Below, piece after piece: positions 23,678 to 53,600 of a DNA stretch of 64,000 nt. The translations under genes and the position numbers were made by a program. The stretch covers positions 22,739,866 through 22,803,865 of the forward strand of contig NC_088644.1 of assembly GCF_964019385.1 (NCBI RefSeq), given 5' to 3'. Within the stretch, counting starts at the first letter, position 1; each line of letters starts with the position of its first letter. The notes beneath the pieces were generated by a model. It worked only from the letters and a program-made list of their open reading frames with translations. It searched no databases and was not told where the DNA came from. Source of the stretch: Sycon ciliatum. Lineage: Eukaryota > Porifera > Calcarea > Leucosolenida > Sycettidae.

Positions 23678-26600
23678 GTAAGAAAGTATTTTTCAGGGAG
23701 GGTTGGATGGGGTCACTGCTCTGACCCAAATTTCGTTTATATTTTATATATTTATTACAACATCTCAAGACCCAGTGGAAACACCGGCCAATGTTAAAGG
23801 GGAAGTTAAAGGGGAAGTTAAGGCAAAAATTAAAATTTCACCAGTTGTAGTCTTCGGGGTGCTGAGTCGAATGGTCGTGGTCCGAGGAAGCTGAGACGCT
23901 CCCTTCCTACTTGAATCCCAATCGAACTCGCGCACTTCCACCGAAACTGGGTGACTGCGCCCTACTAGATGGGGATTTGTATGCAAAATGTCACTAAAAG
24001 CGCCATTTCGTTCTTATAAAAGCACGGATGACCGCGATTGGCCCATATGTTGTAGTCTTTGGGACGCTGAGTGGACTGGTTTTGGTCCGAAAAGGCTGCG
24101 ATGCAGCGTTCCTCCTTTATTCCCAATCGAACATGGTTGAAGAAGCGGTCACGTGGTCCTGGGTGCCCAAATCACCTGGTCACCACGCCAGCAGGTGACA
24201 ACTTTCACACCAAGGTTCAACTCGGGTTCAACTCGAGTGACAGGACTGCACCCAAAAAAGGTCAAACAGGCTAGTAAGTTGTACCCTGCAGGCACGGTGA
24301 CCAGGTGACTGGTGTACGCAGGAGCACGTGACCGCTTCTTCAACCATGTTCGATTGGGAATAAAGGAGGAACGCTGCATCGCAGCCTTTTCGGACCAAAA
24401 CCAGTCGACTCAGCGTCCAAAAGACTACAACATATGGGCCAATCGCGGTTATCCGTGCTTTTATAAGAACGAAATGGCGCTTTTAGTGACATTTTGCATA
24501 CAAATCCCCATCTAGTAGGGCGCAGTCACCCAGTTTCGGTGGAAGTGCGCGAGTTCGATTGGGATTCAAGTAGGAAGGGAGCGTCTCAGCTTTCTCGGAC
24601 CAAGACCATTCGACTCAGCACCCCGAAGACTACAACTGGTGAAATTTTAATTTTTGCCTTAACTTCCCCTTTAAGGCAAAAATTAAAATTTCACCAGTTG
24701 TAGTCTTCGGGGTGCTGAGTCGAATGGTCGTGGTCCGAGGAAGCTGAGACGCTCCCTTCCTACTTGAATCCCAATCGAACTCGCGCACTTCCACCGAAAC
24801 TGGGTGACTGCGCCCTACTAGATGGGGATTTGTATGCAAAATGTCACTAAAAGCGCCATTTCGTTCTTATAAAAGCACGGATGACCGCGATTGGCCCGTA
24901 TGTTGTAGTCTTTTGGACGCTGAGTCGACTGGTTTTGGTCCGAAAAGGCTGCGATGCAGCGTTCCTCCTTTATTCCCAATCGAACATGGTTGAACAAGCG
25001 GTCACGTGCTCCTGGGTGCCCAAATCACCTGGTCACCACGCCAGCAGGCGACAACTTTAACACCAAGGTTCAACTCGAGTTCAACTCGAGTGACAGGATT
25101 GCACCCAAAAAAGGTCAAACAGGCTAGTAAGTTGTACCCTGCAGGCACGGTGACCAGGTGACTGGCGTACGCAGGAGCACGTGACCGCTTGTTCAACCAT
25201 GTTCGATTGGGAATAAAGGAGGAACGCTGCATCGCAGCCTTTTCGGACCAAAACCAATCGACTCAGCGTCCAAAAGTCTACAACATATGGGCCAATCGCG
25301 GTCATCCATGCTTTTATAAGAACGAAATGGCGCTTTTAGTGAGATTTTGCATACAAATCCCCATATAGTAGGGCGCAGTCACCCAGTTTCGGTGGAAGTG
25401 CGCGAGTTCGATTGGGATTCAAGCAGGAAGGGAGCGTCTCAGCTTCCTCGGACCACGACCATTCGACTCAGCACCCCGAAGACTACAACTGGTGAAATTT
25501 TAATTTTTGCCTTAACTTCCCCTTTAAGAGAGTGGGTGATTGCCAACCACGGCGATAAATAAAAGTAAGGGGAGGGAAAAAGAAGGAGTAGCAAAATGAA
25601 CAGCAACAACAACTCCGTAAAGAAAGATAATGTCAAGTAAAAACATTGAAAAATACAGAGACGCAAAGGACATGTGGATAATGAGCTATTTATGTCGTAG
25701 TAAATAAGGGGCGGCACGGATCTTAAACAGGCGGAGTGAGGTCAGATCCTTAACTTCTCTGGGTAGAGTGAGCCAAACAGAATAAGCAATACAGAGAGGG
25801 GAGCGCAAAAGAGTGGATGAGTTACACTTAGGGAGTAAGAGCGAGTTGCTAGTTCTTAGAGAAGAGAACCAATTAAAACACATGAGATGAGGTGGGCACA
25901 ACTCAAGCTTAATAGAATGGACAAGAGAAGCCAGGTGTGCACTGCGTCCATTTGATAACGGGGTTGTGTGAGCGATTTTATAAAGGGCGGATGATGAGAG
26001 CATGCGGGGTTGACGGAGGAGAATTTTAAGGATTTTCTTGTGGTGTATTTCAAGCTTTGCAGCAGCGGAAGAGGAGAATTCCTAAGGATTTACTTGATTT
26101 TTTACAGATATATTCGATGTGGGGTACCCAAGAGAGTGCAGAGTCAATCACAATGCCAAGGTGTTTGTGAGAAGACACTATGTCAATTGGATTTGGAAAG
26201 TTGGCATGGATGAGGGTTGTGAACTCTGGCTGGGGCGGGAAGAGCATGATCTTTGTTTTTGATAGATTTGGGGACAATCTCCAGGACGACATCCAGGAAA
26301 GAACTTCCTGAATGCCAGCACGCAAGTTGTTTTTCAGGCCAGTGAGGGAAGGTGATGAGGTGAGAAGGGTCGTGTCGTCAGCAAACAGAGACGTTCCGGG
26401 GAAGACTGCAGGTAAATCGTTTACGTAAATTATAAATAGTAGGGGACCAAAAATTGATCCTTGAGGAACGCCTGACAATACTGGCTCTGCAGCCGAGGAT
26501 GTGCCAAGCACAGCTACGTACTGATAACGCCCAGAGAGATAAGATTTCAGCCAGGAGAGTGGTTGTTTACGTACCCCGAATGCATGCTCGAGCTTGGCCA

Positions 26601-29600: not shown

Positions 29601-32600
29601 TAACACTAACACACTAACAACAACACTACACTAAACACACGTACTTTGCTCAGACTTCCTCTTCAGTTTCACGCTGGCTGAAACCAGTGTACCTGATTGT
29701 ACTATTCTCTTAGCTGAACCCAGTGCCAGGATCTTAGCTCACGAATGCTCAGACCTCACCTGTGGATGGCACTGCAAACGCGAATTCTAACGCAGTACCC
29801 GGCTTGTGCCTGCTTCTTTATGTTTAAATATAGCAGTGGAGTGGACAAGCCCCCGCTCGTCGAGCTGCTGATTGCGTCAGACCTACGGGTACTGAAAGGT
29901 CTGCTTCAGGTGAGGCCATATCAAACACAACGACATAGCGGCGCATAACCACATAGCAGCCAGTCCCTATGGTTTGTCCTGGCCATGTCACTTTTCGTGT
30001 CAACATTACACATATTTACAACATCCACAACAAGTTACAAATGAATTCAAACAAATAGACATCTTTCTTGTTCCTGCAGAACTGGCGGTTTGGAAAGGAG
30101 GAGTTCCGGAGTGTAATGCACGAGGCCTTGTCGGTGCACCTGGGTGCAAATTTCCGTGGCAAATTCAGCCTGGAAGAGGTACGTACCTGTCTTTGATTGT
30201 TCTCAGTAGTTTCTCATATTCTATCTTTTCTGCCGCCTGTCCGTGATGCTGCATCTTGAGTTCTTGATTTTTACCTTTTTTTTTCTTCAAATAGAGTGAG
30301 ACTTGTTACACACCGTCATCAGGGGCCGTCCGAGGTTACCAATAGTAGTTCCAAAACGAAAAGTTTTCGTTTGGGGATGGGTGGGTTTAGGAGTTTCGTT
30401 TTGAAAATAATTATTGCATGCAGATGGAGAATGCCCAGTTACTTCTGGTGCCGAGAATTAACATCAATACTTTGTTGGAATTCGTATTACCTGCAGAAAA
30501 GGTAGGTAGGTGGGTGGGTGGGGCTGAAAAATACTAAACCTTTTCGTTTTCAAGATGCGCAGACTCCACTGCAGCCAATTCATTTTAAAATTCATTTTAA
30601 AAGATCGCTCAAAACACACACATATCCGGTCTCTGAACTGCAATTATTGAAAAAATTAAAATTAAATTCTCCATCAATATTTCGGCCCTGGGCCATCATC
30701 AGGATTGATAAGAAACAGACAGTGAGGTGAACCTACTATACATGTACATGCACATGTACGTGCTCATACTACATCCAGTGAGAAGATTACATCTATGGCG
30801 CGGAAATATCAGGTATGTTGAGAAAAACGATGAACTTACTTACTCTTACATTATTTTAAACATTGCAGCTGATGTGATAAAGCTGGTGTGTGAAACGGTG
30901 CAGAGGTGAGGCCAAACATATCACAGGGTACACTGTAGTAGCATTAGTGCCACTCAACAGCACTCACACAACCCACTACAACTAGCCAGTCATGTACATG
31001 CATTATACTACGGGACAAAAACGTGACAGCTCTACACCGTGTCGAGAAGCTTCCAACCACGGTCATTGTTGACAGCTGGACGGCGATGACGAATGTGGAT
31101 AGCCTCACGAATACGACGGTTGACAAGTGACATTTCCCTTGTGAGGATGGATGGTGTGGTGAAAGGAATGAATGGTGTAGCGGTTGGGTGTTGATGCTGA
31201 TGTGATGCGTAGTGTTGTCCCCAGGGCTTGAGTGGTGTGCATGCCCTTGCCTCGCGGTAGTGCTCCTGGAAACGCTCTCGCACACATCTTTCTGTCTCGC
31301 CGACATATTCCTCACCGCAAATGGAACAAAACATTGAGTAGACCATAATTCTGGGACATACACTCACCACTCTGCATACCCACATCACAAGCACGACACT
31401 CGACAGGCCTTCCCCTTCTCTTCTTCTTTCGGTAGACATCGCGTGGGAAACGACGATGATACTAACATATCTTTCAGGGACGAGCCAGACTGAAAGACGA
31501 CACGGACATTCTTGCTATACGAACGAACAGCACGGCGAACAGCACGGGCCAGGCGATCATTGATGTATGGGAGTTTCACCATGGACGTGAATGTCTTCTT
31601 CTGGCGGTTGGGTGTTCGGCTGGGCATTGATGCGCTGTATTTGGATGCTTGTATGACAGGTTGCGGGTAGTCGTTTCCCTTCAGCAGCTTCTCACTCTTC
31701 TTCTCTCCTCGTTCTCGGCCCTCTTGCGTGGATGCGTTGCGGTGTGCCCTTCGGAACTGCTCTCGGGCAACCGATTCCTTTAACTCCACTGGCAGCGCTG
31801 ACGAATACGACAGATGTACACCACTATGACTGGGCTTGACAAACAGCTCCGTTCGACAACACTGATCGACAAGTCAAGATAGCTGATTTTTGACGACCAT
31901 GCTTTTCGTTTTGTAAAAACAATCGGTAACCCCGGACGGCCTGTTAGTTATTGTGCAAGGGGAAAAAATGCTCATATCAAGGAGCCGGAGGAAGGGGTTG
32001 GATGAGTGCACTCAAGATGACAACAAGCCGAACAGCAAATGGAGAATGTTGGATATGACGGAAAGATGATGGTACAAGGAAGACCATGGACGCTCATTCA
32101 GAAAGGGAGGGCGCTGCCCCCCCCCCCCCTCCTTTGGTTAGAGTGGGAAGATTCTACTGGGCAGAACGGTTGTAGGAAGACCATGGACGCTCATTCAGAA
32201 AGGGAGGGCACTGCCCCCCCCCTCCTTTGGTTAGAGTGGGAAGATTCTACTGGGCAGAACGGTTGTAGGGCGGCACAAATGAAAACGCAATGCAAGGCTG
32301 TGTGGAAAAAGGTGCGGTGGATATGGAAAATAGAACACAAAGCAATGCAAAAGAACACAATGGATGAAAAAATGTGGATGTAATGGTGGAATAGGTGTAG
32401 AAGGACCGTCCAAAGGTAAAATTGGTTACAAGCTTGTTTCGTTATCATTAGGGTAACTCATCAGACCAATGGCGGTTCTGTGTTGCGGGAACGGTCCCTT
32501 ATCAGTAAAACAACTTAAAAGTGGAAGAACGACAATTGCAGAGGTGTGAATTTATACATGCTTGTGTGTAAGGTAGTTTGATAGATACTTTGTCTTTTTC

Positions 32601-35600
32601 CACGCAATGAAAGGTGCGGGGCCCAGTTTAGTGTCGAGTCGATGCTTAGTCCAGAGATGTTTCATCACCTTGTTTATGCCAGTGAGATGTTGAACGTGGC
32701 TATTAACAATCAGTTGTCTCAGCCGCTCTACACATTACCCACAATACTAGACCCACACGCCTTAAGCGCAGGGCGCGAAATAACGGTCGGACATCGGACA
32801 ATTTCTGACCGTTTACAGTCAGTTTCCGGATGTTTTGTGCACATCCGGACAAAGTATCCGCGCACTTTTTTGCAAAGTGCAAAAAAGAAAAGGCATGGCA
32901 ATCCTTTGTTTCGTAGTCATTAGTGATGTCGTCTGGCAAGAGAAAGCCAAGCACCGCTGATGCGGGTGCTCCTCTGGGAAAGAAGCCCAGAGGAGTCAAG
33001 ACGACCACTTGTGACAAGTGGGTCGCCGAGTATGATAATTGATAGGGAGCTTTCAACTTCTGTTTGGCTGAGCTATGAGCGCAGTCCCTCAGATCGTAGC
33101 GTTGTCGAAAATTTGAAGTGTAAGATGTGTTCCCGTTTTGTTGATAAAATTCGCAGCAGCAAAAATTTTTCTGACTCCTTCGTTGTTGGCTCAAGGAACC
33201 TGAAAACGTCAGCCTTCACAGATCATGCTGCTTCTGAAATGCATCGCCATGAGGTGGCATTGTTTGGCAAGGAGCAGTCAAGCGGAAATCCAATAGAGTA
33301 TGCGCCAATCGCTCGAGCCTTGTGCAAACTTGACGACGCAGCAGCAGAAAATTTGCATGTCCGGACATGTCCGGCCATTTTTGCAACTGGCAGGACATTG
33401 TGTCAGAGCACATTTTAATCCTTAGCGCATGCCCTGTAAGCGCAACATTACACCTCCATTGATTATTCCCTACCACCCTAGTCTCACCGGCATAAACAAA
33501 TTGATGAAAAATCTCTGGACGGCTAAGCATAGACTCGACACTAAACTGGGCCCCGCACCTTTCATTGCGTGGAAAAAGACAAAGTATCTATCAAACTACC
33601 TTACACACAAGCATGTATAAATTCACACCTCTGCAATTGTCGTTCTTCCACTTTTAAATTTTTTTACTGATAAGGGACCGTTCCCGCAACACAGAACCGC
33701 CATTGGTCTGATGAGTTACCCTAATGATAACGAAACAAGCTTGTAACCAATTTTACCTTTGGACGGTCCTTCTACACCTATTCCACCATTACATCCACAT
33801 TTTTTCATCCATTGTGTTCTTTTGCATTGCTTTGTGTTCTATTTTCCATATCCATCGCACCTTTTTCCACACAGCCTTGCATTGCGTTTTCATTTGTGCC
33901 GCCCTACAACCGTTCTGCCCAGCAGAATCTTCCAACCCTGTGATGACTGTCATTCTTTGAACGCTCACTGAATGCAATGGAGCTGCAATGTACGCCTTTG
34001 TTCTTGTATTTGGATGCGGTGTGTCTTTTCCTTAGATTGACCAGTTTTATGACCTAGTCAATCCATTGTTGGAAGACACAATATCATGGGTAAGGGCGCG
34101 ATCGCCACGATGCATTTCAGTATCTGTCTTCAGCGGTTACTATTCTCGAGCACGCTTCACGTGTAGTTTCTCTAAATGGCTCCGCGGTTTATTCCTAATC
34201 CTTTGTGACATGCATAGTTTATAGGCTTATAGGCCTAGCACAAGATGAAACCCATAGAAGGATTTTCCTGATATGACACGGACTGGACGAGTTAGCATTC
34301 AGATAGGATGAGATGAATCGGAGGCCAACGGATCAGCCCAAGAGTATTCCAATGAAAGAACATACCCACAGCACAGTTTAATCATCAACAATAATTCCGT
34401 ATTGGCATAATTGTATTGAGCTGAAGTCTGCTTGTTTTCAGATGCAAGGTCTTTTTGTCGTCTCCCTTTTTTTCATCCAAAAGAAAGGACAAAGGAACTA
34501 CAAGTTACGCTATACTGTCCACTGACACCACCAGTTACATACGTTATATAACTTAGAACCTTCCAAGTTGGAAGGCTGTTGGAGTGCACATCCAAGATGT
34601 GCTAGAGCTGTTAGCCAGTTAGTTGTAGAACGTCTGTACCGTCTGTCAGTGTCGTGCAATGTTATCGCACGAGCTAATTGTTTAGTAACTGGTGGTGTTA
34701 GTGGACAGTATAGCGTAAGTTGTAGTTCCTTGGTCCTTTCTCTTTTGTATAAATTAAACCTTGGATCTCCATCCGAGTCCATTCCCTTTTTTTTCTTTTG
34801 GTATTTTCACCTACCGGCAGGAGCACATCTGTAGCTATGCATTTGAGCAGCATCTAGCAAAGGATGAGATCAGGGTAGTATCTCAAGTAAGTGCTAACTT
34901 ACATAATAAATGTACCTGCGCCCTTTCAACCGGTTGCCTTTTGAATCTAATCTTTCACTACTACGACTCCAAGTATGTACACTTGTGCATTGACTGTCAG
35001 TGTGTTTCACTGTAAAGTTCGTTTGCTTTGCTTCTTTGAAGTTGAGTAATGACACAATGTTTGCCAGCTTCTTTATTCTACCTTTCACCTGTTCGTAAGG
35101 GAACATCCTCTGTGGGAGTACTCTTTGTGACTCCCCAGAATTTCTCTTCGTATTGCCGTGATATGTTGGAGCGTTGTAGTCCCGAAGTAAGATACCAACT
35201 ATTCATTGTTGCTTTCACCTCTCCAAGCTACTTTTTGCTAACCATGGTTGAAAAATGCAAACCATATCACCAACACTCGAACCCAACCCATGTTTGCAAT
35301 TGCTTTTAAAAGTCGTGCTGTACCGACACCTTGATTCTTGAGGGTGGTGGCGTTCTCCTCGGTGTGGAAACTCTGTCTGGCTGGGTCTCATGCAGACCAC
35401 AAAGTTAAAGGGGAGGATACCCTAAAGTCAAATTGTTACCACTTGTAGTCTTCGGGGTGCTGAGTCGAATGGTCTTGGTCCGAGGAAGCTGAGGCGCTCC
35501 CTTCCTCCTTTATTTCCAATAGAACGCGCGCACTTCCACCGAAACTGGGTGCCTGCGCCCTACTAGATAGCGATTTGTATGGAAAAAGTCACTAAAAGCG

Positions 35601-38600
35601 CCGTTTTGGCTTATAAAAGCATGGATGACCGCGATTGGTCCATAATATTTTGTAGTCTTTTGGACGCTGAGTCGACTGGTTTTGGTCTGAAAAGGCACGG
35701 GTGAGTAAGCGGTCACGTGCTCATGCGTACACCAGTCACCTGGTCACCGTGCCTGGCACTGCCTGCAGGCTACACTTTTCACAGCGTCCATGTCACTCGA
35801 GTTGAACCTTTGAACTTTTGAGTTGAACCTTTGTGTGAAAGTTGTAGCCTGCAGGCACCGTGACCAGGTGACTGTGTACGCATGAGCACGTGACTGCTTA
35901 CTCACCCGTGTTCGATTGGGAATACGGGCCGAACGCTACATCGCAGCCTTTTCGGACCAAAACCAGTTGACTCGGCATCTAAAAGACAACATCTGGGCTT
36001 ATCGCGGGCATCCATACTTTTATAAGAACGAAACGGCGCTTTTAGTGACTTTTGCATACGAATCCACATCTAATGGGGCGCAGTCGCCCAGTTTCGGTGG
36101 AAGTGCGCAAGTTCGATTGGGAATAAAGGAGGAAGGGAGGGTCCCGGCTTCCTCGGACCAAGACCATTCGACTCAGCACCCCGAAGACTACAACTGGTGA
36201 AAATTTGATTTTAGGGTATACGTCCCCTTTAATTTTAGCTGTGGTTGGCGGAAGTGGTTGGAATTTTTGGATTTTGCACGTGGCAAGTTGTGATGGCTGC
36301 ATTCTGATTGTTTGACTGAGCTGCATCTGGTGCATTCACTGTTCCTGAACATTTAGATACCGGAATGGGGAGAATTTACGCAGCTCATGCCGTAAGTTAT
36401 TGGAGAATTGTCACAAGGACTGCAGTTTGATCTGGTTTGCAGGGGTATTGTGCTAATCCTGGGCCGAGATTTCAAGTACAGTCAAACCTCGTTAGAACGA
36501 ACTTCAAGGGACTGAACACATTTGTTTGTCTTATCGGGAGTTCTTATTATCCAGATCTGACAAAAAATCGATATGCACATCAGATGGATTGTATTTACGT
36601 GAAGGTGCATGCTGTGGTACATGGGAAGCATGTTATTCTTAGCATAAGCCAGAAACAGGTAAGTACAATGACAAAGTGCAATGAATCACGACTGTGTCGA
36701 AAGTTCGTACAACGCACTGATTATTTTGTTAAAAACACGCTTGAAAACAATTAAGCGCTGTACGTACAATATGACCTCGACTATTGAAAAAAAAGAAGGA
36801 AAAAGGCAGCCAGCGCACGCGCACGCTCGAGGACCGAAAGTTCGTACTACATGTACATGACCACACTGACTTTGTTCAAATCACACTTGAAAATAGTTCG
36901 TCTTCGCGAAAGTTCGCTGTATACAGAAGTTCGTCGTAAACAAATAATTTTGACTTGAATTGATGCCTGGCCAACCATAGGATTGGCCTTAGTTTGTACT
37001 AATGGAAAGTTTGCCTTATCAGTGTTCGTCCTAACGAGGTTTGACTGTACTTCAAAAAGAAGTACCAATTAAGTAGATGTTCTTTTAAAGCCACACATTC
37101 ATTTATTTATTTTATTTATTTATTTATTCAATATCTCCTGGCTCGTCGTAAGACTGCCAATATAACATGCCAAATGAAAGTCACAAACACACGGCGGGAA
37201 AGAGCTAATGGTTGAGACGGAAGTCCAGCAAATTTCTGAGTTTGATGTCACCCATTCAGCGCCGTGTAGTGGCCAGTAGTAGATGACACCAGGTAGTCTC
37301 TTGACCTGGGTTTACCTGTGCAGGGAAAATAACTGGTTGTGGTTCAGGTTACATAGTCAGTTGGCTGCTTTCTTGTTCTAAATCGGAATACCCATCCGTG
37401 CTCAAGCTCTAAAGAACACTGAAACTGGGGGCCGATTGGGAATGCGGAGGGGAAAAGCGCGGAAACGAGGACTGAGGTGGCTGAAAAAGGAAAATAGAAA
37501 TGCATGAAAATGTAAGCCGGTCTCGTAAGGAAGAAAAGTAAATTCAGAAGACAAAAATAAGAGAAAAAGATGAAAGAAGGAAAGAGCTCATGCATTCCGT
37601 ATTTTCACCGACGATCTGCCACTGATGGGCCTTCGAATTTAAAACTTTACATGTATACAACCAATGGACAATGTGAACCACTGACCTAGGACCTGGTGTT
37701 TTCACTGTACAAGTGAAAGAGATTGCCTGCTTTCAGATGGATCCTTACGGGGGTTAGGCGTTGCCCACCCTCTCAAAATGAAAGGAAAGTACCGGCGTAT
37801 TTTCCGGAGTACACAACGCGCTGAAGTATAAGCCGCACCCCCATTTTTTTGCCACAAAATATAGACACACATAATTATACCCTATTTATCACCGTTATTT
37901 TGATCATGGGAGATGAGCATAAGCCGCACCCCTTTTTTGGCTTAATCTGGAGTGTTCAAAGTGCGAAGTGCACAAATATACTTGAAGTAACACAGAAGGC
38001 ACATGCTCTGCACCGGACACGTCCCAGTTCGTTTCCTACTCAAGAGTTGCATGGCTGACTGGTGACTCTCTTCACAGTGTGCTTGTGTGTTCAATCCTGG
38101 GTGTTCATTCCTGGGTGTTTCTGCATAATCTGGCGTGTATGTATGTGTGTACATGGACTCGTCTGCAATGTTGTTGGCTGTGATCTGTTTCTACTGTTGA
38201 TCAGCGAAGGCCGAGAAAGGGTAGCTGCCATAGTGCTGCACTGCGGCGGACAAAGACGACCACACTATATGATAGTCTCAAGGGTAAGTAGACTATATTA
38301 TTGAGTTGCCATGCAGCAGTTCATTATGTTAAAGCTGCGTTTACACGACAACGCTGGGGATGAAAACGCAACTTGTTTAAATGTACATTCCACCAAATTT
38401 TCGGTCCAGTGAGCGATTGTAAAAGTGAAAAGTAGTATTTAATGTGTAAGTGGTTGCATTGGAGTTTACAGATAATTCAAAAAAGAGTAAAAACTTTCCG
38501 AACAAAGAGCCTTATTGACATTATTTTTTATTGACATACATGTATGTGCATGCATGACAATCTTCTTGGTTTTCTTGTTCCCACAGCCGGGTGTGATCAC

Positions 38601-41600: not shown

Positions 41601-44600
41601 GTCCTTCCTTTACGTACCCTGTCTATATCAAGGCTGCGTGTCATCGCCTTTTGGGATATGTAGGCATCGGTGTGATCGTGTGTGCGTGTGCGTGTGTGTG
41701 TGTGTATGTGGTCATGTATGTGCATGTGCGAATGCAGCATCAGTTGGCACTTTCTTGTGCAAATGCAGTATTTTTTTGTTTTGCCACACGGTCACCACTC
41801 CTCAAATTCTTCTGCCGTTATCATCTGTTCACAACATGCACAGTTCTGTACCTGCCGTCCGTGAAGGCCTATATCACATGCCACCCCATTACCAAGGGTT
41901 CTATTGTCATAACCTACGCCAGGAGCAGAAGAAGGCAAGTACCTTTGGCTTCTCGGTCGTGTGTTCCTCCATCTGGTGGGCTTTTGTAACTTGTAGACAG
42001 TTGATGAGCATTTCACCAAACTTGGATTGTTAGCCGGATTCCCGGGATGGGCTTTGCTTGTGCAATTGTGCAATAGTTTTCCCTCGTCTGTCATTTCTGG
42101 CTATTCCATAACAACATTTTGAAGGGCAGAAATTGGGCCTAGCAGAAATCATCTACCATGAAGCCTACAAAGCAATGTCGGTATGCTTATACGTGGGAAT
42201 GGATTGCTTTTCTTTTGGTATGGTCCCAATGTACATGTGGAGCAACGTTCCTTTCGGGCTGTAGTTCGGTCTTATATGGCACTGGGACACTACTACTTTG
42301 GAAGTGTATCACTAGACGGGAGTGTTTGGGGCTCAGTTGCTTAGCTCCTCTAGTTCCTCGTTCTGTACAGTCGGTAGAATGGTGAGAGCACTGGTCTGTG
42401 TGCAAGTTGGATTCACGTTGGAGACACCACTCCTCCCTAGGAAGTTTTTAGTACACCTGACTTTGCCTGGCTACCCTTGTGGGACTTAGTGCACTCACGG
42501 ACTGGACATTGTTCTGCTTTGCATTGTATTCTTATTGCAGCAAACACATGAGAATATTGGGCGGGTGTGACGTCTTTGCGTATGACAATGCACACGGAAT
42601 GCTAGGTAAGCGGCTGGTGTATATATTGAGATGTGCATGTGCTTGTTCCATTGAACCATGATTGTCACAATTCCCGGATAATGGACTGAGCAGGCAGACT
42701 GTAGGTCAAATGCTTTGTTGTAGTAAGTAAAATTGGGTCCACTGCCACAGTACTTATCTTGTTAGTGCATTTCTTCCTAAACTACTTGTGGCCAATAAAT
42801 AGTTGAACAAATACCCCATGTTAAGTTACCATACTAAGTGGAGGGGGGGGGGGGGGGACTCGACATCTAGTAGAGTTGCTTACTTGTATGAAGGGGGGGG
42901 GGGGGGGAAGCAAGGTGATCCTGTAGCAGTATATGGACATGTGCAGGAAATTTGCGAGGCCGGTTCCACACTAAATGATTCAATACCGTTCTTATATCAT
43001 TGCTACATCAGTGAATATGCTCAAAGCACATTGCTACTCTCCCCAGGGTGTCCTGTACTAGTACTTAAATACCGTATTTTCCACTATAAGCCGTTACCCC
43101 CATTTGTTTGCCACGAAATACAGTCATCTACCCTATTTATCACGGTTAATTTGATCATCGGAGTACATGTATAAGCCGCACCCCCCCCCCCCTTCTGGGG
43201 TAAAGTTAGTGTTCAAAGTGCGGTTTATCCTCCGATAATACGGTATATGGCAGTCCTGGTGTGAAGCACCCCATGGTTCTGATTTCTCGGTAGCGCTCAG
43301 TACAGTAACATCAATGTCTATATGCCATGGTGTCTGTGTGACTTTCTGCCCTGCACCGGAGACCAGCCACAGGAGGCTATGATGGCCATATACGCTTGTG
43401 GCGGCCTTTCCACTCGCCGGAACCGATCTGTGTAAGTACTCCTCTCACTGAGAACATAGCACGGCGATTGTTGTATTTTGCGATACAGCTTTCTATCCTC
43501 ACAGGCACGGGGCATATACTTTATGTAATGATCTGCACTGTAGCTGGTCCAGGCTGCAAGGTTCCTCAACAACAGGTCAAATACCAGCTTTTCCTCTCAC
43601 GAACATGGGTCTCATCGTTGTTGGTAGAGTCTACAGCGCTTGGTGTGTGGGTCATGTAGTTTCTGTAATGTACTAATGATCTGCACTGTAGCTGGTTCAG
43701 GCTGTAATGTACTAATGATGTGCACTGTAGCTGGTTCAGGCTGTAATGTACTAATGATCTGCACTGTAGCTGGTTCAGCCTCGGGGCTGCAAGGTTCCTC
43801 CAGGTCTAATACCTGTACATACATTTGACTTGTTCACTTGGTTGATCCCTGGGTCACTGCTGCTCACAGGAACACTGATGAATGTCTACCTCCTTTACCT
43901 CCTTGGGATTTGGCACAGTCCACTGAGCCTCATCATTCAGTACTGGTAGAGTCTACAGCGCTTGGTGGCCTCCAGAGCACACAATCAAATATCATCCAAT
44001 GCTTTGCGGAGCTGGCGAGAGCCGTTCCATTGCTCTTTCACTAGCGGATAGACACAGCGTCAGAGCGCAGTCAACCAATGCAAGCCACAGATCACAACTG
44101 CAACAAGTACCAAGTACCCAGTGGGAAGAGCTGACGTGGTACATAGTCGCCTTGTGCTGCCGTGTTAATCTCTACCAGTGTGTTATATGATCCTCTTGGG
44201 TTGACTGCGGGCTCCCTGCTGCCTTAAAGGGGAAGTTAAGGCAAAAATTAAAATTTCACCAGTTGTAGTCTTCGGGGTGCTGAGTCGAATGGTCGTGGTC
44301 CGAGGAAGCTGAGACGCTCCCTTCCTACTTGAATCCCAATCGAACTCGCGCACTTCCACCGAAACTGGGTGACTGCGCCCTACTAGATGGGGATTTGTAT
44401 GCAAAATGTCACTAAAAGCGCCATTTCGTTCTTATAAAAGCACGGATGATCGCGATTGGCCCATATGTTGTAGTCTTTTGGACGCTGAGTCAATTGGTTT
44501 TGGTCCGAAAAGGCTGCGACGCGGCGTTCCTCCTTTATTCCCAATCGAACATGGTTGAACAAGCGGTCACGTGCTCCTGCGTACACCAGTCACCTGGTCA

Positions 44601-47600
44601 CCGTGCCTGCAGGGTACAACTTACTAGCCTGTTTGACCTTTTTTGGGTGCAGTCCTGTCACTCGAGTTGAACTCGAGTTGAACCTTGGTGTGAAAGTTGT
44701 CACCTGCTGGCGTGGTGACCAGGTGATTTGGGCACCCAGGAGCACGTGACCGCTTGTTCAACCATGTTCGATTGGGAATAAAGGAGGAACGCTGCATCGC
44801 AGCCTTTTCGGACCAAAACCAGTCGACTCAGCGTCCAAAAGACTACAACATATGGGCCAATCGCGGTCATCCGTGCTTTTATAAGAACGAAATGGCGCTT
44901 TTAGTGACATTTTGCATACAAATCCCCATCTAGTAGGGCGCAGTCACCCAGTTTCGGTGGAAGTGCGCGAGTTCGATTGGGATTTAAGTAGGAAGGGAGC
45001 GTCTCAGCTTCCTTGGACCACGACCATTCGACTCAGCACCCCGAAGACAACTGGTGAAATTTTAATTTTTGCCTTAACTTCCCCTTTAAGGCGAAAGACA
45101 CTGGGGCTGCACCGGACTGGGCAAGTTCCCACCGCCAGATCTGCTGGCATTGATTGATGGTTGATATGCTCGCGTATGGTTCCGTGCCATTGCTGTTCAG
45201 AGCCAGGATGTGTACAGTGTATGTACATGTATGTCCTAGGCTAAGCCCACCGACAGGAACTGTCAGACTGCCATACATGTTACTGTCAAGCAGGAATGAA
45301 GGCAGGTATGCTATCCGAGAGCATCAGACCTCAGTAGTGTTGTTGCAATACTGGTGTTGGCAAACACGACATTCAGTGCTATCGTATAGGACTGGATACT
45401 CGCTTGTGTTCCTGAGGAGCCTTGGCATCAGCTGACACCATATTCTTATGCTCGATAGCCAGCACCCTCGATAGACCAGCATATTTTTCCATTTCCCTAG
45501 CGGCTCACACACCGCATGTGGCTGCTGTATGTGATGACATTCAAAGCAACACGACCTTTTTGTCTTCTCGAAGAGAACGATGGAATTCAGGCACACCATC
45601 GCTGCAGCCCACTGAGTAATGTTACTCACTGGTGCTCTAGTTGACGTTGCACATCAGTAGTTTATGCATAAAACAGTGGCAGTGAAATAGGGAAGCATTC
45701 AATTGAGAATAAGGATTGAATGACGGTCCGCATCTTTCCTAGATCGTTAGCACTATTCAGATTAGCGTGCCGAAGACATACAGGTTCTAGATGGCATCTT
45801 CGTCTATACTTCTGCGGTGAAACATAGTTAAGAAGAACATTGATATGACAATCTTTCGCTTTAGAAAACTCTCCCCAGCCTGTGTACAGTTACAGGAAGT
45901 GTGAAGAAGATATTGAACGATTTCTACTGGGACAAAACACCATTGCTCAGTGCTAAGAGCATTGCTGGCCTCAATTGAAGGTCCCTGGTTCGACCCCTAT
46001 TGGCGACGGTAAACATTTTCTTCAGACTCCCCCCCAAACCCTCAAGTAATGGATATTTTAGAAGAACGCAACCATGTATGGATAAGAAGAATGATTGCGA
46101 ACAAATTCCATCAGTCCTTTGGTATTCGGTATTACATTTTGGTATTTTGGTTTGACTATATAAGAACGAAGTGACCAGCAGGGTTCACTATTCCCATTAT
46201 GTATGCCGCAAAAGTATGGGACCTTGTTCCAATTATCGCCTTACAAAACAGCCTTTGTTCGCACTCGGGGTGGTCGTTCGGGGTGGCACTCGGGGTGGTC
46301 GTTCGGGGTGGCACTCGGGGTGGTCGTTCGGGGTGGCACTCGGGGTGGTCGCTCGGGGTGGCACTCGGGGTGGTCGCTCAAAAACCAGGTTTCAGTGCAC
46401 CTCCCCTTTTCCTGTTTACCAGTTTCAAGTTTTCGGGGAGAGGATAATGGATTCCGTTTTGAATATGATTCTCAACACTACCGTAATTTACCGGTTGTAA
46501 GTCGACCCCGGTTATAGGTCGACCCCCGTATCCGGAGGTCTCAATTCTGGTTTTTAAAGTTTTCACCCAACGAAGCACTACTAACCACTCCCTGCCACTA
46601 ACACATGAACAGATCATGGAAACATTTCTTATTGGAGGGTATAATGTCCCAATTCTTGAAAAAAGGCCAATAAACTGGCAAAAAATGTGTACACATGGTG
46701 CACTCGTGCATGCAGTGCAGGTCATTTTTTGTAAGATACAGATAGTTCCCGGTTATAAGTCGAATCCCGGTTGTAAGTCGATCCACAACCTTTCTCCTTC
46801 TATTTTTAGTCGTAAAAGGTCGACTTACAACCGGAAAAATATGGCATGTGTTTTTGTTTGTCTGTTTCAAGATAATGAAAGGACATATCAAACCAGTAAT
46901 ACAACTACTGATGTTGACGAACCCAGCGGATTTTCTTCTCAGCCTGTGCAGAGATGCGGTGAGGTCGGTGTGCGTGTGTGAAAGTGTGTGGTTCCCCTAT
47001 TATTGCAGATTGACTATGCATAATGCATTGATGTGAATGGAATCCATGCATGAGTAATGTTCACCTCCTTTCCAGTATCTGTCCATTAGTTAGAACAGCT
47101 CATTCTCCTTCTAGTATACGTATATCCGGTGCTGTTCGTTGCTGTTTACACTGCAGGTAATTCGGGTATGGGATATGCTCGGCCACTCGTGTATCCAAGT
47201 GCTGCAAGCATTTCCTCTGGTCAAGGATGACTTCTGTAAGTCATGTCGTGCCGTTTCAATAGCCACTGAATTGGCACACATTACACGCAGAGTGAAACCC
47301 AGTCACCGAAGTAAGAAGAACACTGTTAAGACCAACTTTTTTGCTTTGGAAGAACTAGATTTCGTATTGAATACTCAATCTCCGGACAACAGCTGTTTCG
47401 ACCATACTATGTCTCCTTAGTGGAGCTCAGAACTACTGGCCGGACTGATGGCAATGAGGTCCAATGAACAACAAAGCATTTTTAGACCTTTTAAACAGTC
47501 AGAGTGCTCTAACTGCATCAAACACAGCGAGTGCACCAGGGCAGGCAACTTCAACGCTAACCGGAAAAGAGTGCTCAACCAAGCAGAGGCGAGAGAGTGT

Positions 47601-50600
47601 ATTACTCGCTGGATAAATCACTGGGTATTCACTGTGTATTCACTGGGTGCAAATTCCGTCGGTGCGAGCAAATACCCTCGATCCCTTGGTGTTCGTCCCA
47701 CACCTGCTTACACTTAAATTATAGAACTCATTTCTCTCATACGCCTCTGTTCGCTTCTCAATTCTGTGTGAAAGACAACTGTTTGATGCTCCACGACACT
47801 ATCCACGACCGATTGGTGTTCTCTTTTGATGAAAAGGTAGGTCAACTTTGGTGTGAATTTACTAGCCACCTTACGAATATGTGCAAGGTTGCTACTCTGG
47901 TTGTCTTTGCTGGTTGGTACTAAAGAGTTCCTGCTGCGGTGATTTACTTGCTTGCTTCGCACCAGTTACCCGTAAAGTGGCGTTTCAGGTGATAGACATG
48001 TATATGCCACCAGAAACGAGGGAATTCGTGTGTTGCCAAGTCCTGAACTCGGACTACTCTGGGTGGTGGTGGTGGTGGTGGGGGGATTGGATGGAGTCAT
48101 TTTGAAATGACAGCTTCCTTGCTTGTAACTTTTGCGGTAGCATTGCTGTGCCTTGCTTCTGCGGTAGCATTGCTGTGCCTTGCTTCTGCGGTAGCATTGC
48201 TGTGCCTTGCTTCTGCGGAAGCATTGCTGTGCCTTGCTTCTGCGGTAGCATTGCTGTGCCTTGCTTCTGCGGTAGCATTGCTGTGCCTTGCTTCTGCGGT
48301 AGCATTGCTGTGCCTTGCTTCTGCGGTAGCATTGCTGTACCTTGCTTCCACTGTAGCATTTCTTGATTCCACAATTGCGTTGCTGTGTCTTGCTTCTCCT
48401 AGAGTATTGCTGTGCCTTGCTGTATGTCTAGATGTATCATGTTCGCCTGGCTGGCCCCAGGGATCTTGGACCACGCAGTCATGCGGCAACAGTGACTGGT
48501 TGTGTGTACAAGCAGTCCACCGAACAGGTAAGCATTGTGCTGCATGTGTGCTGCATTCAGCACACCAAGCCACGCAGCCTACCCGATTGTCTGACCCTGT
48601 GAACGCACCAGTCATTCTAGCCGATTACCTGAGCTGTGTGACGTCGGTGGCAAGTGGCCAGTTTTTTGTCGCCAGTCGTATCTGATGTGATGTTATGCGA
48701 CATGCAACACGAGTACAGTGCTGTTCATTTAGATGCAGCCTCCAATGACTTGCCGAGCACTGGACACCGCACCTCCTTGCTAGTTCAGTGAGCACTGGTC
48801 CGTGCACTGGACAGAGATGACAACCCATACCCTCACATAATCGGATTTCATTGAGCAGTGCTGTAGCTTGCGTGACACTGATGTGTAGGGGACAGTACAA
48901 TGCATCTGCATGACGTTGTGTACGAGCCGATGTAATACATGATCTGCATGGTGCCAAGTAGGCCTCTCTGTTCACTACCAGCTAAGTATAAGTACAGTCG
49001 TCCCTCTCTAATCCGGCACTTTATAATCCAGCACCCTCGATAAACCAGCACAATTTTCAGTAGCCAAAATGTCCTCTTCATGCACATTGCAGCAGTAAAT
49101 CAGATTTGTTAATCCAGCACCCTCCCTAATCCAGCAGATTTTCGTGGCACAAATGGTGCCGGATTATAGAGGGACCACTGTATTGAAGTATTTTCACAGT
49201 GCTTGTAGTTGCACTGATGAGGTGTCATTGGCCGAAACAGTTCGCTGTCTGCGATTTAAGAGTATCAAGTAGTCTTCAGAACCCCCCCGTAATTCTCATA
49301 TGAAGCTGCAGCAAGAGTCTACATTCGCTTTTCGGCGGTGATAACCAATGCATGCGTTCTTCATGGGTTTGCACAGCTTATAACCGCCGCGTGGGATTCA
49401 TCAATTAGCTTCTGGGCTATATCAAGCGGTCAGCGTGTACACAAGGTGAGCAGTTCCCTTTGCAGTGCAACATGTACTAATCATGGCTATCAGATGACAA
49501 GTACAAAGACTGTGTGCAGGGTTCAATCGAATAACACCGTACATACACGATATGCATGGAACACCAGTCGATTTAGAGGTAACATGCAGTGGTGTTTGTG
49601 TATTAATGTTTGGCCAACACTTTGGGTGATGTGTGTCAAGTCTCACACTTTGGGTGATGTGTGTCAAGTCTCACACTTTGGGTGATGTGTGTCAAGTCTC
49701 ACACTTTGGGTGATGTGTGTCAAGTCTCACACTTTGGGTGATGTGTGTCAAGTCTCACACTTTGGGTGATGTGTGTCAAGTCTCACACTTTGGGTGATGT
49801 GTGTCAAGTCTCACACTTTGGGTGATGTGTGTCAAGTCTCACACTTTGGGTGATGTGTGTCAAGTCTCACACTTTGGGTGATGTGTGTCAAGTCTCACAC
49901 TTTGGGTGATGTGTGTCAAGTCTCACACTTTGGGTGATGTGTGTCAAGTCTCACACTTTGGGTGATGTGTGTCAAGTCTCACACTTTGGGTGATGTGTGT
50001 CAAGTCTCACACTTTGGGTGATGTGTGTCAAGTCTCACACTTTGGGTGATGTGTGTCAAGTCTCACACTTTGGGTGATGTGTGTCAAGTCTCACACTTTG
50101 GGTGATGTGTGTCAAGTCTCACACTTTGGGTGATGTGTGTCAAGTCTCACACTTTGGGTGATGTGTGTCAAGTCTCACACTTTGGGTGATGTGTGTCAAG
50201 TCTCACACTTTGGGTGATGTGTGTCAAGTCTCACACTTTGGGTGATGTGTGTCAAGTCTCACACTTTGGGTGATGTGTGTCAAGTCTCACACTTTGGGTG
50301 ATGTGTGTCAAGTCTCACACTTTGGGTGATGTGTGTCAAGTCTCACACTTTGGGTGATGTGTGTCAAGTCTCACACTTTGGGTGATGTGTGTCAAGTCTC
50401 ACACTTTGGGTGATGTGTGTCAAGTCTCACACTTTGGGTGATGTGTGTCAAGTCTCACACTTTGGGTGATGTGTGTCAAGTCTCACACTTTGGGTGATGT
50501 GTGTCAAGTCTCACACTTTGGGTGATGTGTGTCAAGTCTCACACTTTGGGTGATGTGTGTCAAGTCTCACACTTTGGGTGATGTGTGTCAAGTCTCACAC

Positions 50601-53600
50601 TTTGGGTGATGTGTGTCAAGTCTCACACTTTGGGTGATGTGTGTCAAGTCTCACACTTTGGGTGATGTGTGTCAAGTCTCACACTTTGGGTGATGTGTGT
50701 CAAGTCTCACACTTTGGGTGATGTGTGTCAAGTCTCACACTTTGGGTGATGTGTGTCAAGTCTCACACTTTGGGTGATGTGTGTCAAGTCTCACACTTTG
50801 GGTGATGTGTGTCAAGTCTCACACTTTGGGTGATGTGTGTCAAGTCTCACACTTTGGGTGATGTGTGTCAAGTCTCACACTTTGGGTGATGTGTGTCAAG
50901 TCTCACACTTTGGGTGATGTGTGTCAAGTCTCACACTTTGGGTGATGTGTGTCAAGTCTCACACTTTGGGTGATGTGTGTCAAGTCTCACACTTTGGGTG
51001 ATGTGTGTCAAGTCTCACACTTTGGGTGATGTGTGTCAAGTCTCACACTTTGGGTGATGTGTGTCAAGTCTCACACTTTGGGTGATGTGTGTCAAGTCTC
51101 ACACTTTGGGTGATGTGTGTCAAGTCTCACACTTTGGGTGATGTGTGTCAAGTCTCACACTTTGGGTGATGTGTGTCAAGTCTCACACTTTGGGTGATGT
51201 GTGTCAAGTCTCACACTTTGGGTGATGTGTGTCAAGTCTCACACTTTGGGTGATGTGTGTCAAGTCTCACACTTTGGGTGATGTGTGTCAAGTCTCACAC
51301 TTTGGGTGATGTGTGTCAAGTCTCACACTTTGGGTGATGTGTGTCAAGTCTCACACTTTGGGTGATGTGTGTCAAGTCTCACACTTTGGGTGATGTGTGT
51401 CAAGTCTCACACTTTGGGTGATGTGTGTCAAGTCTCACACTTTGGGTGATGTGTGTCAAGTCTCACACTTTGGGTGATGTGTGTCAAGTCTCACACTTTG
51501 GGTGATGTGTGTCAAGTCTCACACTTTGGGTGATGTGTGTCAAGTCTCACACTTTGGGTGATGTGTGTCAAGTCTCACACTTTGGGTGATGTGTGTCAAG
51601 TCTCACACTTTGGGTGATGCGTGTCAAGTCTCACACTTTGGGTGATGTGTGTCAAGTCTCAATTGGATACGATTTTGTGGACCGTACCGAACCAATACAC
51701 ATAGTCCTTAGCAAGCGCATCCTGCTCTTGTTCCAAGTACAAGTGTCTGTAGGGTGTCGTGGTATTCCAAATTCTGACATGCATGCAGATGGAAGGCTGT
51801 CATCGCAAGGCTGCCATCACAAGCCTGGCATTGAGCGTCAATGAAAAGTTTCTGATATCTGGTGGAGATGATCGCATCATCAAAGTAAGAGCTTTCAATA
51901 TGCTTCTTTCCCCACAGTGATGTAAGCAAAACTCTGGAGCAGGGTTGATGCTCGTACTTGTAGCATAGCAGTTCTAACAGGATTTTATAAATATAGTCAA
52001 CACCGATTACAGTGTGATATCCAGCTCATAATGGCTAGACTATGTAGAGTGTTAGAGTTGGGATTAGGATTGAGATTACAGCTGACCAAGTTATCCCCCC
52101 CCCCCCCTCACCCCGACCCCGCCCCACCCCGGCCTCACTTTGAGGATAAATTGAAAACATTTGAGACCCGAGAAATTGCTGTGAGAAAGTGTTTCAGCAA
52201 ATCCAATGTTATCACACAATCAAGAAAGTCGATTAATGTATTGCTTCGACTGTACAGCGCTGACATGAGCACCACTGTGCTGTGATTCTTTTTTCTATTG
52301 TATTAGCTAGCTAGGCTTGTGACTGGCTGATATATCTTGTGGTCATAAGACCATTGCATGCAGTGCAAATTCGCATCATTTAACTTAGTATGCTGTTTTT
52401 GTTCACACTGTCGCGTGCCTGTCAGGTCTGGGATGTTAGCACATACGGCATTGTTCATGCTTTTGACCCGGAGCACTGTGTTTGCGGCGGGGCTGTGAAC
52501 TCACTAATTGCCATGCAGGGCAAGGTCATCGCTGTCGGCTGGGCAAGGCAAGGAGCTAACATGTCATGTCCTTCATGATAGATTTTATTTTCTATTCAAC
52601 AATGTTGTTGATATTTGGTTAGCGCAGAAATCTGGGGTTGGTCTTTCTAAACAGGTCAAGGTATGTGTTGATGTATGATATGGGGGATGAGGTGATCGGT
52701 TTTTCAACGGTGGGTAAGTGGGCTTTCATAAACAGGTCTGAATGCATGTTGAAGCAAGGTCTGGGGTCTGACGTGAGTGGTCTCTTAAACAGGTAGTCTC
52801 CTATTCCGGTGGTCACACAGGTTTTAGTATAATGTTCGTCAGGGAGTCAGAGCATTTTGGAAGATGACATATCTCAATATCCGAAATGATGTTCGGTTAA
52901 CCCCAAATCATGAGAGCCTGAGTGGAATTGGCGCATACTGGCTCATGTTGCCAACCACTGGTGGATGCCCACATGAGTAGCATCAGCCGAGTCCGAAATA
53001 GGATTTGACTTGTCAACCTTTTCCATCGAATTTTGCAAAGTTCAACTGTGGTTTTGACTCTCAAACCCAGTTTCCGTTGAAGCTTTCAAAAATTCAAAAC
53101 ACTTTAATATCTATACTATTACAGTGTGATTTTCTGGCTATGCGCTTCCTGTATTAGCACCGTCCCATGGAGGTTGCATTGTGAGTGACCCCCCCCCCCC
53201 CCTCCAGATATGGTCGTCTTTGCATACGGAAAATTGCTGACAGACTCCGGCCTGTTGTTCTTTCAGATTTCTCACGCAGTACGAAGTAAATAGCTGCTCA
53301 AGTTTTGTGATACACCCCACCTTTCTGGACAGTGCAAATGTAAGTTAGTGTTTTCCTGGCAGCATCCTGCTGTGCGTTAGGTTTTGATGTACGCTTGAAG
53401 CGCTTTTACGATTGTTTCTTCTGTACATGTAAAGGTGAAAGAAGGAGTATTGCCCCGTAAAGTACTGCATTAGCGCGCCACCATTCACCACTCCCTTTTG
53501 TGGTCGTGTTTGGAGGTGATGTCCTGTCTCCTGTCTGTACCGTACCGGGCCCACATTGCACACTCTGCAGTCAATACGTACTCAGTTCACATTTGAGCTC

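Follow-up and report, generated by a model that had tools for sequence, protein, structure and literature searches.

Among described retroelements, Terminons come closest to the system we report here: in the available text of their description (PMC6431247), a reverse transcriptase (RT) without an endonuclease is combined with a 3' hammerhead ribozyme, reverse-complement telomeric repeats and arrays at chromosome ends, the repeats being (ACACCC)n or (TCACCC)n and the hosts bdelloid rotifers. Canonical Penelope elements with a GIY-YIG endonuclease, as far as the accessible parts of the reports on Adineta vaga (PMC3846280) and on PAc of Anolis (PMC11167929) describe them, have a layout of pseudo-LTR (pLTR), open reading frame (ORF) and pLTR with a further inverted pLTR, head-to-head repeats, a hammerhead in the pLTR and an internal start of reverse transcription. 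The hammerheads reported for Penelope are minimal variants in which the non-conserved nucleotides of helix III are usually absent (PMC7761336, available portion), and metazoan non-LTR retrozymes, which are short non-coding tandem repeats, bear a type I hammerhead with a short stem III closed by a tetraloop (PMC7229834, available portion). We analysed a stretch of 64,000 nucleotides from the sponge Sycon ciliatum (NC_088644.1, positions 22,739,866 to 22,803,865, forward strand; hereafter the window), in which two hammerheads face outward from the arms of an inverted repeat. The whole segment (32233-33939) has two inverted arms and a middle; judged from its letters without the middle, it appears to be a pair of 3' ends from one retrotransposon, both 5'-truncated, that meet head-to-head at 32687|32688. 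We consider it probable that this is a fossil head-to-head pair of telomere-associated Penelope-like 3' ends at an internal site, split later by a hAT-like transposon.

The left copy (32233..32687, minus strand) is assigned to the 5'-truncated 3' end of a Penelope-like element, here called family A, in which no endonuclease was found. It retains the last 44 amino acids of the RT ORF (tblastn to residues 391-434 of the family A RT, 70% identity; codons LTGINKVMKHLWTKHRLDTKLGPAPFIAWKKTKYLSNYLTHKHV, 32555..32686, minus strand), then the untranslated region (UTR) or pLTR with the hammerhead. The right copy (32688..33939, plus strand) would be the same element with the hAT-like insertion inside it; it has an in-frame stop (VERGY*) and its 5' truncation lies about 40 codons further upstream than that of the left copy. 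Its C-terminal RT codons 3' of the insertion (33438..33617, plus strand) match residues 376-434 of the family A RT (68%, E 1.5e-21), and once the insertion had been removed by script the copy matched residues 351-434 from the junction on (66%, E 6.7e-32, tblastn). The head-to-head junction, 32687..32688, is placed on the strand switch of the matches of locus L049, which change strand exactly there (query 1-48 versus 49-207). The arms, the right one at 33482-33939 on the plus strand, are 455-458 bp long and 97% complementary to each other (over 455 bp), the best other whole-arm match being 85% and shorter pieces reaching up to 92% over 110 bp. The inner 130-180 bp of the arm encode the RT C-terminus, with HKHV as the last residues, and the arm ends about 190 nt past the hammerhead in AACCCT, the telomeric C-strand hexamer (33934..33939, plus strand); the terminus at the left end is a degenerate CACTCT (32233-32238). 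A local tandem duplication of 93-97 bp at the left border (32077..32269, plus strand) includes 37 bp of the left arm, at its outer end. Each arm is thus best described as a candidate 3' end of a Penelope-like element, comprising the end of the RT ORF and a UTR/pLTR with a hammerhead. The initial annotation, which had proposed an inverted-LTR Penelope derivative as one of two options, came close; its inverted repeat of roughly 1.7 kb is inverted as it said, that length being the whole span and not the arms.

Its other option was a new composite element, in which long terminal inverted repeats bearing ribozymes would mobilise a cargo. The layout suggests this at first sight, and the fate of the middle makes it scarcely credible. 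The middle (32769..33436, plus strand) has CAGGGC...GCCCTG ends, a target duplication TAAGCG on either side (32763-32768 and 33437-33442) and a transposase zinc-finger fragment (PF25431, E 2.9e-7; 7 database relatives), so that the hAT/ZNF862-like zinc-finger piece seen initially is real; the hAT label is based on the termini, the match to the family and general knowledge of such transposons. When the whole segment was searched against the host genome (538 Mb in 313 contigs; 40 of 219 candidates scored), every scored match outside the window was a copy of the middle alone, and complete copies ended at window positions 32768/9 and 33436. Target duplications of 5-6 bp flank 5 of the 7 other copies (L002-L004, L006, L008); L005 has none, and L007 lies on the other strand, its ends not read. 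Because the middle recurs elsewhere with its own ends and duplications, it is a separate, later hAT-like insertion and not the captured cargo first supposed. The whole unit with the same ends, whose recurrence had been suggested as a check, was found at no other locus among the scored candidates, the middle and the arms recurring separately, and the arms encode RT C-termini. A terminal-inverted-repeat DNA transposon was likewise rejected on the ground that the arms are RT C-termini. A divergent pair enclosing captured sequence was an arrangement unfamiliar to the initial annotation; for Penelope, head-to-head pLTRs have already been described, as has the capture of DNA between pLTRs, according to the available part of PMC3846280.

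The right hammerhead (33668..33784, plus strand; outer helix 33675-33769) and the left one (32388..32504, minus strand) have their CTGATGA starting at 33708 (+) and 32464 (-) and predicted cleavage after 33745 and 32427, respectively; their letters are identical across the 115 nt aligned. Both have stem II GTTA/TAAC, a stem III of 3 bp (A15.1-U16.1 counted) with an AGCT loop, an inner stem I ATTGGT/ACCAAT and an outer helix GGACCGT/ACGGTCC. The complete type I hammerheads described at the outset (core, 3-bp stem III with tetraloop, 7-bp outer helix), one per inverted arm with the left on the minus and the right on the plus strand, are borne out by the letters at both sites. Against 0 matches in 60 random 64-kb sequences generated with the window's first-order Markov composition, a strict descriptor hit both sites in the window and one more at 49214 (+). 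The latter belongs to a hammerhead-like stretch at 49207-49256 (+), with CTGATGA at 49214, GAAA, a 4-bp stem III and a TTCG loop, to which the Rfam short-stretch search gave no match.

The Rfam covariance check that had been proposed did not call the two sites: a scan of the whole window at E<=1 gave no match at either, and on a short stretch HH9 reached 10.8 bits there against a cut-off of 52. The only hammerhead match of the window scan was a sub-threshold Hammerhead_HH9 with an altered core at 4604-4681 (+), at 28.8 bits against the same cut-off. Nearest-neighbour folding also disfavours the ribozyme fold (-10.1 versus -20.4 kcal/mol). With Rfam silent and free-energy folding preferring another structure, doubt would be possible if one went by motif matching alone. 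We therefore give the comparative evidence in full, from a set of 31 family members, 28 of them distinct after identical sequences were dropped. A covariance model built from the family (R1) scores 116.1 bits at both window sites, a circular value given that both were in training. Outside the training set it gives 108.6 bits for a copy that lies some 8 kb inside the end of contig C1, and 99.1 and 97.7 bits for an arm of L041 (minus strand) and one of L055 (plus strand). In a second alignment made without the window the stem II columns were misaligned between subfamilies, and no model was made from it. Standard pairs occupy 92.3% of 587 cells (21 pairs, 28 sequences), against 32-48% in slid controls. 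Double changes are seen in 94 cells where shuffles average 40.7, and a covariation score of 0.397 compares with 0.213 for shuffles; 0 of 500 shuffles reach either value. Changes on both sides occur in 10 pairs, a number that 31 of 500 shuffles also attain (mean 8.0), and the 19 further pair types are not above shuffles (mean 23.9; all 500 reach 19). Covariation is seen in stem II (GC/CG/UA), in stem III (CG/UA) and in the outer helix (AU/GC and UA/CG). At residue 17 all 28 sequences have A, C or T and none has G; the significance we attach to this residue and to the core is taken from general knowledge. Altogether, the core and the three helices with covariation indicate what appears to be a type I hammerhead under selection. 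A scan of viral contigs with the hammerhead pattern gave 0 matches.

A type I hammerhead with stem III and tetraloop, an arm GC of 0.42 and a comparable size could also describe an animal retrozyme, that is, a non-autonomous hammerhead repeat of 150-450 bp copied via RNA circles. We find this very improbable: the arm contains RT codons, unlike the non-coding metazoan repeats described, the family keeps open RT frames, and none of the matches of the arm search was a tandem array in which hammerhead-bearing units consist of the arm alone. Two overlapping, hammerhead-less arm pieces lie at C11:28383583-28383809.

The genome search with the right arm gave 48 matches, with 40 of 46 candidates scored, and 20 longer regions were taken from it; these leave out four near-duplicates in the cluster at C9:2.0-2.9 Mb, C1:34197138 and C5:8071066, and five of these six places were kept as short loci. 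Most copies from this search lie inside contigs. In the longest regions the arm comes after an RT ORF, and L046 has the layout pLTR, ORF1, RT ORF and pLTR, with a further pLTR, inverted, on its 5' side, so that both direct and inverted pLTRs are present at this locus, as in canonical Penelope. ORF1 ends at L044, L045, L046 and L051 in TGA followed by CAAC(C/T)A; after the TGA the next ORF is in frame at L044 and L046 and, over the short stretch seen, at L051, the frame at L045 shifting further on. Read-through or splicing at this stop is possible. The family A RT matches Pfam RVT_1 at E 5.6e-4 (20.1 bits, under the curated cut-off of 29.6), a search of solved structures with it gave none, and its motifs are of what we take to be the PLE (Penelope-like element) type. 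GIY-YIG was absent from five family A pieces in Pfam at E<=0.01, a search of limited sensitivity which found it in one piece of a second family, B (E 0.0019, below cut-off), and missed it in another with the same motif by eye. Of 54 RT homologues, 4 have GIY-YIG, and these are 26-32% identical to A; in a tree of 49 of the 54, which consists of unnamed database proteins and leaves out P0057-P0061, the 10 database proteins in the clade of A have no annotated GIY-YIG. Families A and B are mostly 21-29% identical by tblastn. On these sequence features family A can be classed as a Penelope-like element, with a PLE-type RT and pLTRs, in which no endonuclease was found. Apart from canonical Penelope it is set by this, by its telomeric terminus and by a hammerhead unlike the minimal variants reported there, an internal start of reverse transcription being for family A a proposal.

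Two side observations concern the surroundings of family A copies. At L042 and L045, family B (RT with GIY-YIG) abuts the A copies on both outer sides, the 5' parts of B being turned towards A. Near A copies there is also a second hammerhead-like motif, of minimal form and with ACCGGT standing for stem III, at L041 (3890, plus; 1605 and 1248, minus), L055 (6653, plus; 5678, minus) and L059 (8215, plus).

The link to telomeres is seen at the termini and in the arrays. Of 32 distinct family termini (those with identical following sequence merged), 15 have an exact AACCCT within 20 bases around the end, against a background of 16 in 6400 20-mers, and 12 have at least 2 repeat-like units, several of these being junctions to the next ORF1; the terminus of L045 has three perfect telomeric repeats. 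The host telomere is TTAGGG, with arrays at 3 of the 12 contig ends read (the starts of C9 and C13, the latter as CCCTAA, and the end of C4). A genome search with the RT protein (97 of 1932 candidates scored) showed that three large contigs have, at one end, head-to-tail arrays of relatives whose frames are open. C1 has 5 copies (93% identical) on the minus strand in its last 23 kb at the right, and C2 and C13 have 6 copies each (54-55%) on the plus strand, all in the first 30 kb from the left. A further array, of 9 copies, is on the unplaced contig C173. The 5' end points outward and the 3' end is proximal in all three placed arrays; the window copy itself is internal. Units are about 3.8-3.9 kb, with one spacing of 2.9 kb in C1, where a unit shows the anatomy of the window copy by eye: RT stop, hammerhead (scored by R1), AACCCTAACC, next ORF1. 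In the C13 subfamily, whose RT is about 54% identical, the RT stop is followed after about 60 bp by telomeric repeats and, about 500 bp beyond these, by the hammerhead (R1 35.2 bits, E 7.8e-7, outside training); at L072 (C13:8000-17000) the 3819-bp units in the array are 99.96% alike, the hammerhead again lying beyond the telomeric repeats.

By its described features, and with a tree that contains no named references, family A matches telomere-associated Penelope-like elements of the Terminon type. As far as the available description of Terminons goes, the likeness includes the lack of a detected endonuclease, an ORF upstream of the RT ORF, 5' truncation, a 3' hammerhead followed by reverse-complement telomeric repeats and head-to-tail end arrays. 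Family A differs from them in its unit length, its TTAGGG host, its fuller stem III of 3 bp with a tetraloop, its many internal head-to-head pairs, and the position of its hammerhead, which lies about 190 nt upstream of the telomeric hexamer and in the C13 subfamily beyond it; that of Terminons is immediately adjacent, according to the same text. We take Athena to be the name for such telomere-associated, endonuclease-deficient PLEs.

With 5' ends pointing outward from contig ends, a pair in minus-then-plus order could be the relic of an end-to-end chromosome fusion, in which a right and a left end, both capped by family A, were joined. The contig-end arrays have the orientation that this requires, and the window and the 20 fetched regions together contain 10 divergent pairs. 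We nevertheless hold a fusion to be improbable: ten internal pairs would demand many fusions, the arms are sisters and not copies from two different telomeres, and exon-like stretches of compatible phase, identified by eye, lie on both sides of the window element, which suggests an intron. Three joined exons from these flanking stretches, in a query that was one letter off (S for N), gave nothing convincing in Pfam or PDB.

In a tree of arms, the two arms of an inverted pair are nearest relatives at 10 of the 11 pairs tested, a count that includes L041 (support 0.31) and L044 (no support value); L047/L048 lay outside the test. Independent insertion of one short repeat, which had been named as the outcome that would speak against a single unit, is rejected by these sister pairs and by the ranking of whole-arm matches. 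For the origin of such pairs within the reading of the locus as telomere-associated 3' ends, we hypothesise that tandem arrays at chromosome ends would be transcribed, that the hammerhead in each unit would cut the read-through RNA to unit lengths, and that reverse transcription would start where AACCCU of the RNA pairs with a free DNA 3' end terminating in TTAGGG. Priming at AACCCU would leave the 3' end of the new copy joined to the chromosome and its 5' end, often truncated, outward, and the outward 5' ends of the placed arrays are what priming on a G-rich overhang predicts. If both ends of an internal break were capped and then ligated, two head-to-head sister copies with outward ribozymes would result. 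Six divergent pairs (in the window and at L043, L045, L050, L051 and L055) have flanks that differ and an inverted match that breaks off no more than about 7 bp from the terminus, which suits two RT starts on one break with the outward 5' ends joined. For double-ended capping taken by itself we see about even chances.

The same element could also have given rise to pairs from one copy, through snap-back self-priming of the cDNA or of a capped chromosome 3' end, or through sister-end fusion, either of which would leave a palindrome. Self-priming has been proposed for Penelope inverted repeats in the available part of PMC3846280, the arms of 10 of the 11 tested pairs are sisters, and the 6.2-kb palindrome of L044 (99.2%) is seamless, with a truncation on the left; this locus, with L041 and L042, suits snap-back or sister fusion. 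As an account of the window we regard this as possible though on the unlikely side, since snap-back through the host junction would not give the arrest at the telomeric terminus with different flanks seen there and at the five other loci.

Several observations weigh against the reading as a pair of telomere-associated ends formed at a break. At L041 and L042 the palindromes extend past the terminus into flanking DNA, convergent pairs exist (L040 and L047/L048), and the arms of L050 are not sisters. No convincing target duplication was found at 7 loci (best 5-6 bp shared, off register), which is consistent with endonuclease-free entry and also with other histories. The lack of an endonuclease comes from profile searches of limited sensitivity and is no proof of its absence. 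No telomeric repeat is seen in the last 600 bases at the right of C1 or in the first 600 at the left of C2, so these are contig ends and not proven chromosome ends. The stem II foot pair is lost in 17 of the 28 distinct ribozymes; according to the available part of PMC7229834, a U-U mismatch at this foot is reported for an axolotl hammerhead with weak monomer activity. Finally, the family A cut site lies between the ORFs and AACCCU, so that a cut linear unit could not be fully copied from AACCCU. Either uncut RNA would serve as template, or the units would be circularised; the former was found for PAc in vitro (PMC11167929) and the latter for animal retrozyme RNAs (PMC7229834), as far as the accessible portions of both papers report.

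Elsewhere in the window, the Penelope-like end that was initially placed directly beside the structure is present as a GIY-YIG Penelope fragment (31032-31514, minus strand), which lies some 0.4-0.7 kb from the left arm and had no match to family A or B in the window search. A 40-bp inverted repeat (85%) lies on both sides of it, at 30324-30363 and 31902-31941, and near its 3' end CTGATGATGGCCCAGGGCCGAAAT (30675-30710, minus strand) resembles a minimal hammerhead by eye, Rfam giving no hammerhead there. Near-palindromes of about 830-870 bp with TTAAAGGGGA(A/G) ends occur at 1277-2142, 23803-25530 (two fused copies), 35401-36236 and 44221-45092, and a 28-bp satellite occupies 49617-51661 (73 copies, 99% matches).

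In the open full-text literature, most subscription papers being outside its scope, we found no recognisable account of a canonical hammerhead in such an element or of its internal sister pairs. The system ties a canonical, covarying hammerhead to a retroelement in which no endonuclease was found and which keeps open frames in contig-end arrays of a TTAGGG host. We tentatively suggest, as an idea that may well not hold, that a telomere-type retroelement with such a ribozyme could serve in the emergency capping of internal breaks in a TTAGGG animal, with both broken ends priming on AACCCU of circular or tandem RNA. The internal sister pairs would then perhaps be scars of breaks capped on both sides, and head-to-head sister copies a readable record of double-ended, telomere-like healing. 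If hammerhead-made RNA circles were copied round repeatedly, this would account for contig-end arrays of near-identical units placed head-to-tail. The many internal head-to-head scars offer direct tests of how the element enters broken or terminal DNA and of the role that its ribozyme may have in this.

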